Below, piece after piece: positions 2,401-41,500 of a DNA stretch of 64,000 nucleotides. Within the stretch, counting starts at the first letter, position 1; every line of letters starts with the position of its first letter. The notes beneath the pieces are model-generated. The model saw only the letters and a program-made list of their open reading frames with translations, did not search any database and was not told the DNA's origin. A program made the translations under genes and the position numbers. The stretch is taken from the NCBI GenBank assembly GCA_034440635.1, contig JAOTON010001032.1:186001-250000 (forward strand), written 5' to 3'. Origin of the DNA: Lepas anatifera (lineage: Eukaryota > Arthropoda > Thecostraca > Lepadidae).

Positions 2401-2509
2401 CTTGTCGATGCTGAGCTGAACGCTGTGCCACTCGGCGCGGTCTGCCACCTCCATCAGTGGCGCCCCCTCGGCGGAACAGGGCGCCAGGTGGCACTGCTCC
2501 ATGTGCTCC
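2401..2509 (-). CDS. DLG5: DLG5 exon m (after coiled coil)
   Basis: The acceptor CCTCTATCCACAG precedes 1 nt plus 36 codons and the donor gtaaga. The 1 nt completes the Arg codon left open by exon l. The peptide is [20 protein letters not shown], then [16 protein letters not shown]; an acidic EW-containing stretch is expected between the coiled coil and the first PDZ domain. Its 5' part is multiplied in the adjacent 2510-3500 array, which is direct evidence that the array derives from this exon edge. Confidence 0.7.
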
Positions 2510-5500
2510 CTGTGGATAGAGGAGTGTCAGTGGCGCCCCCTAGATAGCAGGGCACTGCTCCATGCGCTCCCTGTAGATAGAGGAGTGTCAGTGGCGCCCC
2601 CTCGGCACAGCAGGGCGCCAGGTGGCACTGCTCTATGTGCTCCCTGTTGACTGAGGAGTGTCAGTGGCGCCCCTGGGCGGAGCAGGGCGCCAGGTGGCAC
2701 TGCTCCATGTGCTCCCTGGAGGGCAGAGGAATGTCAGTGGCGCCCCCTGGGCAGAGGAGGACGCCAGGTGGCACTGCTCCATGCGCTCCCTGTAGATAGA
2801 GGAGTGTCAGTGGCGCCCCCTCAGCACAGCAGGGCGCCAGGTGGCACTGCTCTATGTGCTCCCTGTTGACAGAGGAGTGTCAGTGGCGCCCCTCGGCGGG
2901 CGGGGCGCCAGGTGGCACTGCTCCATGTGCTCCCTGCTGACAGAGGAGTGTCAGTGGCGCCCCTCGGTACAGCAGGGCGCCAGGTGGCACTGCTCTATGT
3001 GCTCCCTGTTGACAGAGGAGTGTCAGTGGCGCCCCCTGGGCGGAGCAGGGCGCCAGGTGGCACTGCTCCATGTGCTCCCTGAGGGCAGAGGAATGTCAGT
3101 GGCGCCCCCTGGGCAGAGGAGGACGCCAGGTGGCACTGCTCCATGTGTTCCCTGTTGACAGAAGAGTGTCAGTGGCGCCCCCTCGGCAGAGCAGGGCGCC
3201 AGGTGGCACTGCTCCAAGTGCTCTCTGTTGACAGAGGAGTGTCAGTGGCGCCCCCTAGATAGCAGGGCGCCAGGTGGCACTGCTCCATGTGCTCCCTGCT
3301 GGCAGAGGAGTGTCAGTGGCGCCCCCTAGATAGCGGGGCACTGCTCCATGCGCTCCCTGTAGATAGAGGAGTGTCAGTGGCGCCCCCTCGGCACAGCAGG
3401 GCGCCAGGTGGCACTGCTCCATGTGCTCCCTGCTGGCAGAGGCGTGTCAGTGGCAGAGCTGGGCGGCACCGCTGCACGTGTTTCTTGTCGGATAAGGGGG
3501 GCCATTAATTACCCCAGACACATGACCGGCGTCGAAGTCCAGGCCCTTGGTACGTCCCAAAACATCTAAACGCAATATGGCACGGCTTAGACGAATGTAG
3601 CGACGCGGAACGTACTGTTGTAAGAGGCAAATTCATTTTATTTGAATGCAACATTCATGTAAGCTCATTAAAACTAATTTTCTGTCATTCCAAAACCATA
3701 ATTTATAGTCCATTTACTCATATCCAATGCACATTTTGTATCTCGGATCACAATTTTTTTCAATGGTGCGGACCACTCTCGTGGTCCCTCTCTTGTAAGA
3801 AGGACCAGAACCTAGTGGCAGCACGGTACCAGACACCGGGATATATGAGTCGATTGGGCCGTTCCCGCGGTCGGTACCGTCCTTAGACTGCTCATGTATC
3901 TGGAGTAGGTGAAACCATAATAAGCTCCCAGATTCCCTGGCCCATTTTGATATGAATTCTGGAAACAGACACAGATCGACCAGGCTCGCTTAAATTACAC
4001 TGAAAGCAAAGGGAAATAAGAATTACGCTTCACGGCCGTGCGTCTCAAGGTAATCAGACAAAAACATTGCGTGTAAATTTATGTGCAAACCAAAAAGGAG
4101 CGGCCAATAAACTTCACTGCTATGAATGGCATGCGAGTCTTGCCGTGCTCAGAGATTCTAACCAACGCATACAGACAAAGAAGTAAATCAAACGTCCAAC
4201 CATAAAAACACACGCCTGTTCGAGACCTTCGTTCCATAGGCGGATCCAGGATTGCCGATCGGAGGGGGCACCTTCCCGGGGGGCATCCGGACCAGGGGGC
4301 GCCACTTATGACCGGCAAAACCTATCAGGTGGGCGCCGACTTTCGTATCCTGGGGGGGTGGGAAGCGACATTTCAGGGGGCGCCATCGACCTTTCAGGGG
4401 TGCGCCGAGGGTCGATCGGGGGGGGCACGTGCCCCCTTGTCCCCCTGGATCCGCCTATGCTTCGTTCTGTCTTTATCTGTAGGCACGATTCCTGAGAGTG
4501 TGATTCGTCAACTCAAATCGATTTGGAGGTTTTGACGACGCACCCAATGCTAAGATCATATATGACGTTGTCAACTCTCACCCTGATGTTAAAAAGTTTA
4601 CCGTTAGCCGGCGTGGGATTCGAACCCACGACCCGTGCCGCCGCCACAGGCAAAAACGAAGAGGGTACGGAAGCTGTGAGAAAGATCTTTACTCCTCGCA
4701 AACACAAAAAACCGCCCCTGAAATTATACACGGCTGGGTTTCTGACACCTTGTAATATTCCGCACCTTACCGCATGACATGCTTTTTCTCCTAAATTTGA
4801 TAGAAATCGAAAAACTTTCTGATGAAAAATGGAAGGAAGCATACTCACGTTCCCAAGTATCCAAGACACATGCCGACAGACTCTACCTACCCAAGGAGTT
4901 CAGCCTATTTTCGCTGGGCCGTCGGATCCCCATATCTCTCCCTACTGATCTATATTCCGGTATGAAGCACCTGCTTACTAAGCATTGCTAATAACCTTAA
5001 ATATAAATTAAGACGAATTATTAGGTTATATGGCCGTGGGTTCATACAAATGCAGCAAGTACGTTACAGACTAGTTTCAGTGCTGGGAAAGAGTGCACAG
5101 AAAACAAAACTGATAAAATTGCATTGGCGCTTTTGTTAAAATGTGGGACTTATCTAGCTACAAACGTAGCTCCATGTCAAAGCATAAATAGAAGCTATCC
5201 GTAAGCACAATCCCTGAAATCTGGTACCAGGGATACATAGGCAATTTCGGTACCAAGGCACTCGGCACGCACTATTACGTCGTACACAAGCCAGACGAAA
5301 TACAACGGATAATTGAAAAAGAATAATCATCCTTTTATTCGAATCAAACATTTACGTAAACTCAAAATAGGTTATCTTTCATTTTTTTACAGAACAATAA
5401 CTGATACCCAATGGCAATATTGTATTCTATACCAAAATATTGTTAACGACGTTATTGCACAATTTCTTCGCCTACTAGTAGTGCGAACTAACTCTCAAGT

Positions 5501-38500: not shown

Positions 38501-41500
38501 TGTAAGGAAGAGAGGGAGGGGTGCCAGCAGTGTCGGATATAAGGGGCTAGCGGGGTCAAGCCCTCCCCCTCCCACGAAATGTCAGAGTGCCTGTAGTTAA
38601 AACATAGCTGGAGCGTGTTCCGAGACGGTGGCTGGGGAAGGCTGGCTTATTTTCTGAAACAACACTAACATATCAAGAACCTTCAGCATACTGATGGTCG
38701 GACACTGAACTACTTGATAGCCAGCAAGTCCATTCGTGGACACCGTACGTCACTTCATTTAATTTCTGACAAGATTAGAAAACTACACCACGCAGTTCGT
38801 GCGAATCTGTAGGTACATTCCCAGCAACTTCACTTACTGAGCGCCCGTAAGTCCACCAGGGGCTCGTGAATTACACCGCCTACAACGCTTACTTTCTGAG
38901 AGCCTGCAGGTCCAGCATGGCTCTGTCGTAATGCAGCTTCAGCTTTTCATACTCCTTAGACCCGGGCGAGCCCCATTTCTCCATGGACTGGCTGCTATGG
39001 CGGGACAGCGTGGCTGTGAAGGGGGAGGCAACAGCCAGATTAACGACAGTGAGCCCCATTTCTCCATAGACTGGCTGCTATGGCGGGACAGCGTGGCTGT
39101 GGAGGGCGAGACAGCAGTCTCGGTCTCGGTCTCGGTCTCGGTCTCGGTCTCGGTCTCGGTCTCGGTCTTCTTTTTTTTTTTTTTTTTTTTTTTTTTTTTT
39201 TTTTTTTTTTTTTTTTTCTCTCTCTCTCTCTCCCACAGCCGGACACTTGGTGATCAGATGATGTGGACGTGTTAGCACTTCCTCTCCTCATCACATCATC
39301 ACAGTATAAAAACGGTCCCCAGCCTGCCCCAGGTGCAATACAAACATCAACCCAAACCCAATTCCAGTAAAGCATAACTATCAGCCCTCGCCACTTCCTA
39401 TGAACAACGCCAAACCACACAAACCACTGGCGTACCCACGTCAATGCTGCCTGTAATTTGCCAAGTGCCTGCTGTGAGTGGCCCGAATACAAAATCCAAC
39501 ACCACAAGCCTCAGCCTCTCCTCAGCACAGCCCCCCGGCGCGGCCGCTGACCGTAAGCGCTGGCTCCGGTCTCGCCGCCGGAGGACAGGTACAGCGGGTA
39601 GCGCGCCTCGTCAGTGGCGCTGCCGTCGAAGCTGGCCGAGGCCACGCCCAGCCGCCGCAGCGCCACGTCTCGCTCCGACAGCGTCTTCGTCAGCTCCTTC
39701 CGCAGGCTGTCTCGGTCGTGGGTTACCAGCTGTGGTTGTAGGGCGTGGGTCAGTCAGGGGAGGAGTGATGGGTCACCAGCTGAGGTTGTAGGCCGTGGGT
39801 CAGTCATGTGGGAGGGGGGGGTGATGGCTCACCATCTGAGGTTGTAGTGCGTGGGTCAGTCAGAGGAGGGGGTGATGGGTCACCAGCTGAGGTTGTAGGG
39901 CGTGGGTCAGTCAGGGGAGGGGTGATGGGTCACCAGCTGAGGTTGTAGGGCGTGGGTCAGTCAGGGGAGGGGTGATGGGTCACCAGCTGTGGTTGTAGGG
40001 CGTGGGTCAGTCATGTGGGGGGTGATGGGTCACCAGCTGAGGTTGTAGGGCGTGGGTCAGTCAGGGGAGGGGTGATGGGTCACCAGCTGTGGTTGAATGG
40101 CGTGGGTCAGTCAGGGGAGGGGTGATGGGTCACCAGCTGAGGTTGTAGGGCGTGGGTCAGTCATGTGGGGGGTGATGGGTCACCAGCTGAGGTTGTAGGG
40201 CGTGGGTCAGTAGGCCATGTCGTGATCACCACTTTTTCACAGGATCTTTGATTTCCGGGTGTTTTGTAATGTATTAATGGTCGCTGATCACGATTTTCTG
40301 GTCGAAAATGTCGAATTCGAAAAATATTTGCCCGCGCAAGCCGTTTGAAATTCTTCCGGTTTGCCAAAATTTCGATGTTTTCATATCTCACGGACAATAA
40401 AGTGTAACTTATGTATGGAAAGGGCCACAGCACTTTTAAACCATTGAATGTTAACAATTTAAACCTTTTTGACTCCTTAAAATATATACTTGCCTGATAA
40501 AGTACCGTGGAAAGACGGGGATGTTTGAGCTTAAAAAGATGATAATAGATGGCGCGCATGACGCAGCCGTCAACCACTGTCCCGCTACGTCGCTTATGTC
40601 AAGAAGCTATTAGCCAAAGGAGCTGGATTTAGGATTTGAGCCCATTATGGATTCGATGAATGAACATTTACCTCACAAGATGATCTAGATTTTTCTCGCT
40701 TGCAATTTTAAATATTTTTGGTAATGGTTGCTTTCAAAGCAGGTACAATTAAGATCAGCCAGCCATATATAGATTAGGTATCTAAGTATGTAGTCACTGC
40801 GGATCAATTTCAAGTATAAAAATGTATGCAAGAGCCAGTCGATTATATTTAGATTAGTCTTGCTATCACTAGCAAGGAGAATACCGCATTTCGGGAAAAA
40901 TGAAGCTACACCACACCTAGCGCCGTCGTCAAGTCAAGCCATGTATGCTGCCGCTTAACCAGCTCTCGACTGGGGCTGACGTTGTTGGTCACATTATGAT
41001 GCTGCAGCTTGAAGAGATGGAGGCCAGAGAAGTGGACCAATTTCACGTTTCAATAGCTTGAAAATTCGAACCGACCGCTGATGAAGTTACCGAGACTTAC
41101 AGAAGAGCATCTGTGACAGCAAGAAACAAGTACAAAGTTCGCTGTGAAATAAGGAAGCATTGTAACCTGAAGGAAGAGATCAGAAGGCGCCTACAAAACA
41201 TGAAGATATTTAAGTATGGACAAGGCATGACAACATTGTTTGACATATAAAGCAGAGTTTTACCATCAAAGGCATCGGCAAACAGAACATTTCTGGAAGA
41301 CCAGCGAGAAGAGCAGAGGTTGTATCTTGGCGGCTTGGATGCAGTCGTGACGGACCATTGGAGGCGGCAGCAGCTGAGGCAAGCCACTGCTGCTGTTGTT
41401 GTGGCTACCAGGAGTTCTCCGGATGTTGCGTTCTGACGGAGCTGAAGCTGCGTCAGAACGCAACGGAACCATTGACAGCGACCGATGGTGGTATATGCAG

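Follow-up and report, generated by a model that had tools for sequence, protein, structure and literature searches.

The window, a 64,000-nucleotide stretch of contig JAOTON010001032.1 of the barnacle Lepas anatifera, contains 12 predicted exons of a DLG5 gene on the minus strand (exons b to m), which join into a single open frame of 616 residues without a stop. The chained exons matched DLG5-like proteins, at 43% identity over 93% with that of Artemia and 45% identity over 58% with that of Dinothrombium, and in an alignment judged by eye a homologue runs on gap-free across 7 of the 11 exon joins, including six of the seven borders that carry arrays, exon d being the exception. The match ends about five residues inside exon m, such that this exon has homology backing at its first residues only. 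Exons b (43747–43856), e (38283–38499), h (35783–35904), j (8118–8281) and l (6127–6343) are without arrays.

Each of the other seven exons borders sequence repeated in tandem, as an array or a simple duplication, in which every unit combines the exon edge, the splice site and adjacent intron. The original prediction was correct for all seven borders and for the side affected, namely the acceptor in exons c, d, i and m and the donor in f, g and k. Tandem Repeats Finder (TRF) called arrays at every one of these borders but that of exon d. The acceptor of exon c (39552–39729) is multiplied in 50-bp units at 39719–40211, with two further TRF-called units at 43111–43208 separated from the main array by insertions, and a 2.7-kb foldback insertion lies within the array (40208–42890; arms at 40208–41395 and 41705–42890, detected as four stretches that are 96–98% complementary). 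Exon d (38893–39013) has a two-copy duplication of 83 bp, seen in the sequence and by direct comparison, with an upstream copy at approximately 39014–39117 that repeats about 46 bp of exon edge at 83 bp from the real site. The unit at exon i (8963–9083; array 9047–9456) is 75 bp long, comprising about 37 bp of exon and 38 bp of intron, and that at exon m (2401–2509; array 2454–3454) is 71–74 bp long (73 bp in TRF). Donor arrays have units of 30/33 bp (30/63 bp in TRF) at exon f (37174–37338; array 36984–37188), 43 bp at exon g (36586–36768; array 36341–36594) and 29 bp at exon k (7024–7166; array 6922–7027). All arrays were read on the minus strand together with their exons. The TRF arrays extend into the exon by 4 bp (k) to 56 bp (m), and growth is one-sided: among the 90 junctions tested in DLG5 and other genes, array-like similarity reached the threshold on the intron side of 10 and on the exon side of none.

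Units differ in sequence and length from border to border without relation to each other, as had been proposed. Local matches at p ≤ 0.005 by shuffling occurred in 5 of 66 unit pairs against 0.33 expected (scores 17–24), which we read as common composition. A whole-genome DNA search, covering three of the seven window borders and skipping very common words, found no second genomic place for the exon m array with its exon (500 bp) or for exons f and g together (791 bp). A single spreading repeat is ruled out by these searches (m, f, g) and the unit-pair comparison, while arrays at multiple borders with unrelated units support the recurrent process at exon borders that was put forward in its place. 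The same queries recovered a single DLG5 copy, and length variation within DLG5 was not seen. Introners and other intron-creating transposons also consist of repeated material with splice signals, as the barnacle arrays do. Introners belong to a single family scattered through the genome; for borders m, f and g, the search just described, in which very common words are skipped, returned no other location. Protein-coding repeats were rejected as well, as 2 of 12 unit lengths are multiples of three and use of the decoy sites leads to stops.

The pattern was originally regarded as peculiar to one gene, which proved incorrect, since an ANKRD40-like gene is also affected, at two borders, as is a donor in myosin. 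Left of the window, DLG5 exon n has a donor array at −30574 and exon p a weaker acceptor array at −32704 (score 12, below the threshold of 14), where the TRF array includes 3 bp of exon. Border-spanning units are therefore clear at eight DLG5 borders and weak at one (p), with both kinds of border hit (acceptors c, d, i, m and p; donors f, g, k and n). The ANKRD40-like gene has a 22-bp donor array and a 70-bp acceptor array. In myosin, a 22-bp array spans the donor of an exon at locus L033 (score 12.5 versus the threshold of 14), and a second array (L030; score 8 versus 14) adjoins an acceptor at 0 bp and does not span it. Other arrays end close to a junction that they exclude, at 12 bp from the donor of DLG5 exon o, 20 bp from the acceptor of exon q and 35 bp from the junction of an L2HGDH-like exon. 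No border array was found on inspection of the exons in random loci L016, L022 and L024, which lie outside the 90-junction test. DLG5 was preset by the finding, and the ANKRD40-like and L2HGDH-like genes were noticed through arrays in random loci; the unbiased sample consists of myosin only, with 13 exons and 26 junctions at six loci picked from 79 matches before the sequence was viewed, and it yielded the two myosin arrays by eye and with TRF.

The ANKRD40-like locus is present in two copies with arrays of unequal length. The copies share 98% identity over 548 bp, the second being an allele or a recent duplicate, and the border that carries an array in one carries a similar array in the other. 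Sites in register with the 70-bp acceptor unit number 11 on contig C1 and 2 on contig C1497, counting the real site, and units of 33 bp at the locus number 17.7 and 14.7, respectively.

The original prediction named no precedent for such a gene-wide pattern, but comparable "mirage" minisatellites are already described from lancelets in Adh3, the globins BflGb6 and BflGb9, PGBD5 and TnC, and have been linked to intron gain as a proposed model (PMC3087553, PMC3902484). Lancelet mirages likewise consist of tandem units across an exon/intron border, at donor or acceptor, with unit lengths of the same order (10–160 bp, compared to 22–83 bp in the barnacle), and their length differs between haplotypes; in the barnacle, length differs between the two copies of the ANKRD40-like locus, which may be alleles or recent duplicates. 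Reported hosts are cephalochordates whereas Lepas anatifera is a crustacean; a lancelet source of the DNA was rejected on the mitochondrial-like segment, with COX1 100% identical over 97% to Lepas anatifera. Our literature search found no crustacean report of mirage-type arrays. Many borders of one gene are affected in the barnacle, unlike in lancelet mirages. For the latter, normal splicing was suggested by RT-PCR and somatic instability has been reported, whereas the barnacle arrays are known from assembled DNA. In intron gain by tandem duplication of an AGGT-containing exon segment, as set out in a review (PMC3443670), splice signals are copied in tandem, as in the barnacle, but there the copied exon segment becomes a new intron, while the barnacle copies derive from borders already present and lie within introns already present.

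We consider it probable (roughly 0.78) that these are mirage-type minisatellites seeded at splice junctions and tolerated since they are lost with the intron. A short segment across the splice junction would have been duplicated in tandem, and the array would then lengthen or shorten through slippage or unequal exchange. Growth would be tolerated on the intron side alone, such that the exon-adjacent unit keeps a working splice site and the others become intronic; as all of these sit in the intron, they would be excised with it. In vivo, splicing probably uses the exon-proximal site, as only this site gives the right exon size and content, and decoys would consequently be close to neutral. Observed directly are the junction-spanning units, the one-sided growth, the many decoys with intact AG or GT, the stops that decoy use would produce, the unequal arrays in two copies of a locus and the occurrence in several genes, whereas the mode of expansion, the choice of site in vivo and the near-neutrality are inferred; the lancelet precedent, with matching anatomy, also supports this reading.

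A compatible refinement that names a cause, which we offer tentatively, is that mutation is targeted to junctions, where R-loops or a polymerase paused in coupling to splicing would provoke breaks or re-replication and so create duplication hot spots in this lineage. Within the DLG5 region, 8 of 15 arrays had a junction-spanning unit, compared to 0.33 expected under uniform placement and 0.81 under GC-matched placement (exact tails 2e-10 and 2.4e-8), and this excess after GC matching, the effect on both donors and acceptors in unrelated genes and the additional arrays 0–35 bp from junctions all point towards targeting. Against it, GC was the sole matched feature, with pyrimidine tracts and short repeats unmatched, and few genes were sampled.

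It is unlikely that the pattern arises by chance in an array-rich genome, where selection removes arrays that enter exons and the rest seem to stop at the border. Arrays cover 5–7% of random positions, and the excess of array-like coverage at junctions was modest because of this abundance, with 10 of 90 junctions compared to 102 of 1500 random positions (6.8%), and 8 of 50 DLG5 junctions compared to 64 of 1000 non-junction positions. In the other genes, coverage was 2 of 40 junctions (both ANKRD40-like; 0 of 26 in myosin), which favors chance, and in an ungapped test 7 of 50 junctions scored, versus 1664 hits among 20000 random positions, with 936 of these hits being of higher complexity. When arrays were shifted within 1 kb only, the number of arrays containing a junction (8 of 16) gave p = 0.06, which counts against the mirage-type reading. 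The test of whether a junction lies inside an array is too weak where arrays are common, and the position of the founding unit was asked instead. Chance does not explain this position in the 8 of 15 arrays above or in the left part of DLG5, beyond the sequence available to the original prediction (2 of 7 versus 0.12, p = 0.005), and the placement of array ends also speaks against it (7 of 16; p = 2e-5 uniform, 0.0013 local). The unit-origin test was devised after the weak coverage result and later than the 1-kb-shift permutation, and the left part of DLG5, whose arrays were already known by then, is the sole and partly independent check. Counts omit TRF rows below score 100 or period 17 and the exon d duplication, for which TRF made no call, and the array at 43111 was merged with that of exon c in the unit-origin test (15 arrays) and kept separate in the shift test (16 arrays). 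The anticipated overlap beyond chance thus held strongly for unit origin, while base coverage was only mildly raised, with no excess at the few junctions sampled outside DLG5.

The arrays supply the dozens of decoy splice sites foreseen, with 39 canonical decoys at the seven borders, and one rival reading gives the arrays a functional role, in which decoys tune splicing or yield regulated non-productive isoforms. AG is kept in most acceptor candidates (c 9/9, all upstream of the exon; d 1/1; i 4/5; m 12/15), and GT at the window donors in f 5/5, g 4/6 and k 4/4. Donor decoys elsewhere often lack GT (canonical in 12/20 at exon n, 18/74 in the ANKRD40-like gene and 2/5 in myosin), and this loss of GT in donors compared to retention of AG in acceptors is not predicted by pure neutrality. 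Among ten arrays with more than one decoy, the splice dinucleotide was more conserved than other columns in five (c, f, i, k and m), a count biased upwards because decoy units were chosen by resemblance to the real site, and less conserved in the other five (g, n, both ANKRD40-like arrays and myosin L033). We nonetheless regard function as very improbable, given this split, the variation of unit sequence, length and side from border to border, and the finding that 37 of 37 tested DLG5 decoys (10 of the 12 canonical decoys of m and all those of c, d, f, g, i and k, without n and p) introduce a premature stop when joined to the neighboring exon, including 15 that preserve an in-frame length. An artefact of wrong exon borders or assembly expansion is scarcely credible: although all gene models are sequence-based, with little homology in exon m and homologue matches left of the window for exons o, p, w, x and z only, the 12 exons form one uninterrupted frame with homologues in two other arthropods, the units have diverged (TRF matches of 75–92%), and the array recurs in the second ANKRD40-like copy.

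Mirage-type minisatellites, which the papers located here describe from lancelets alone, are thereby extended to a distant phylum. More speculatively, junctions may be hot spots of tandem duplication through a process linked to splicing or transcription, with separate origins in lancelets and barnacles, in which case a sizeable share of the borders in this genome could have decoys of working grade. Where a single true site is accompanied by rows of nearly identical donors or acceptors, nature has set up an experiment on spliceosomal choice between equal signals. Such arrays can also mislead gene prediction and the mapping of short reads in barnacle genomes. Variation in array length would allow the first steps of the proposed route from mirage to intron to be tested within a population.

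The twelve DLG5 exons of the window (exons b to m) are encoded on the minus strand; as read from the sequence, they are flanked by AG and GT and join into one stop-free frame of 616 residues, whose protein is 43% identical over 93% to an Artemia homologue and 45% over 58% to a Dinothrombium 'Disks large-like' protein. Judged by eye, 7 of the 11 exon joins fall at gap-free stretches of the homologues, including six of the seven array borders. Thirteen more DLG5 exons (n to z) were read on the same contig left of the window; tblastn with two homologues matched five of these (o, p, w, x and z), while the others were called from an open reading frame, codon usage and splice signals, giving a DLG5 set of 25 exons and 50 junctions for the junction counts. 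The 27-kb intron between exons h and i contains two largely identical antisense open frames on the plus strand, one a C-type lectin (17884-19020; Pfam Lectin_C) and the other read as a frame (24083-25153). A further plus-strand open frame (13255-14658) encodes a LINE-type reverse transcriptase, with relatives that are at most 70% identical and are unnamed predicted proteins.

The original prediction was that seven exons in the window are flanked by tandem arrays built from their own splice junction, and all seven were recovered: TRF picked up six, and the sequence itself shows that of exon d, where the acceptor occurs as a tandem of two copies. Left of the window, the donor of exon n carries an array of a 22-bp unit in 21.5 copies (at -30574, negative positions counting leftward from the window) and the acceptor of exon p a weaker one (at -32704; 71 bp, 2.7 copies), in which the TRF array takes in 3 bp of exon. 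With n and p included, 9 of the 50 DLG5 borders have a junction array; arrays near the exon o donor and the exon q acceptor stop 12 and 20 bp off, respectively, and do not include the junction. Array growth runs into the intron: the array threshold (score ≥ 14, z ≥ 4) was passed on the intron side at 10 of 90 junctions (50 from DLG5 and 40 others) and on the exon side at none. The exon c array is split by a foldback element (40208-42890; arms of ~1.2 kb, 2.7 kb in all) and two units survive beyond it; the array therefore predates the insertion. Between its two parts, ARAGORN called a minus-strand tRNA-Gly (gcc) at 43035-43107, which may be a SINE head.

The expectation of dozens of decoy splice sites within array units was borne out, with 39 canonical ones counted in the window. 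Among candidate matches, AG was present in acceptor decoys at exons c (9/9), d (1/1), i (4/5) and m (12/15), and GT in donor decoys at f (5/5), k (4/4), g (4/6) and n (12/20). When DLG5 decoys were joined in silico to the adjacent exon, a premature stop resulted in all 37 tested.

An excess of array-junction overlap over chance held for the repeat units, which straddle junctions above expectation, while base coverage was only mildly raised. Eight of 15 DLG5-region arrays had a junction-straddling unit, against an expected 0.33 under uniform and 0.81 under GC-matched placement (tail probabilities 2 × 10−10 and 2.4 × 10−8), and the part of DLG5 outside the window gave 2 of 7 against 0.12 (p = 0.005). 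By base coverage, array-like sequence was found at 10 of 90 junctions versus 102 of 1500 random positions, at 8 of 50 junctions versus 64 of 1000 other positions inside DLG5, and at 2 of 40 junctions outside it, both in an ANKRD40-like gene; an ungapped test gave 7 of 50 DLG5 junctions versus 1664 of 20000 random positions. Array coverage in the random loci came mostly from long arrays away from known exons. When array positions were permuted, junctions were contained in 8 of 16 arrays (p = 6 × 10−5 uniform, 0.06 with shifts within 1 kb) and array ends lay near junctions in 7 of 16 (p = 2 × 10−5 and 0.0013). Junctions may be genuine hot spots of duplication, or the genome may be so rich in arrays that junctions are just one of many sites carrying them.

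Restriction of the pattern to DLG5 did not hold, as border arrays of this type also occur in the ANKRD40-like gene and at one myosin donor. Eighteen arbitrarily placed 10-kb loci were sampled from the assembly (1.04 Gb, 2126 contigs). One holds the gene that, judging by its protein, we take to be ANKRD40-like, with a 70-bp acceptor array (AG in 10 of 13 candidate decoys) and a 22-bp donor array (GT in 18 of 74, a count that takes in a shorter, shifted unit type). Another has a presumably L2HGDH-like exon with a 43-bp array 35 bp before it that does not span the border. A second copy of the ANKRD40-like locus on contig C1497 (98% identity over 548 bp), either an allele or a recent duplicate, has 2 register sites of the 70-bp acceptor unit versus 11, as well as 14.7 copies of a derived 33-bp part versus 17.7, and its donor array differs in GT/GG unit pattern. 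In six myosin loci fetched blind to arrays (13 exons, 26 junctions), a 22-bp array of 6.5 copies spans a donor (L033; GT in 2 of 5 candidate decoys) and a 32-bp array of 8.2 copies stops at the last intron base (L030). None of the 26 junctions passed the threshold (score ≥ 14, z ≥ 4), the L033 donor being nearest at 12.5; the frequency in this very small set is roughly one border per 13 to 26. Of three paired myosin matches on contigs C431 and C1554, two had equal frame lengths and near-equal scores, which suggests haplotigs retained in the assembly. A 69-bp (23-codon) repeat at L015:277-1372 (~16 copies at 97%) was rejected as a border array, being a coding repeat inside an open frame.

Other repeats in the window, called with TRF, were a 20-bp GGGGGCCC-rich unit in ~85 copies (60246-61973; also called as 41-, 82- and 123-bp units), CCAT in ~102 copies beginning 77 bp downstream of exon i (8478-8886), and short runs of a 17-24-bp unit (CGACCTTTCAGGGGGCGCCAT and variants) at 4366, 9641, 16592, 49907, 50042 and 63687, perhaps part of a dispersed repeat. 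Elsewhere, a 340-kb contig contains a long mitochondrial-like segment (L029, G000:C609:131001-138000) in the order K(-), Q(-), M, ND2, W, COX1, L(UUR), COX2, D, ATP8, ATP6, COX3, G, with tRNAs from ARAGORN and genes other than COX1 named by eye from frames. L(UUR) between COX1 and COX2 is a pancrustacean mark. The segment's COX1 is open in the invertebrate code and 100% identical over 97% to that of Lepas anatifera, the next named match being Balanomorpha at 92%; six other contigs have partial COX1 matches. The segment could derive from a nuclear copy or from a join made in assembly; in both cases it indicates a goose barnacle.

Nor is the pattern without precedent, as had been supposed: one report describes arrays of this kind in lancelets as mirage minisatellites (PMC3087553), and another adds PGBD5 and TnC as further lancelet cases (PMC3902484). 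Titles and abstract openings in the open-licence literature, among the matches listed, yielded no such arrays from barnacles or other crustaceans; in the accessible text, "splice" is absent from a Daphnia tandem-repeat paper (PMC3152781), and "tandem" and "minisatellite" from the main text of the Pollicipes genome paper (PMC8917513). The DLG5 border arrays are real, with their anatomy correctly read in the original prediction, and are no peculiarity of DLG5; arrays of this kind are known from lancelets, and the barnacle adds a new case in a distant phylum.
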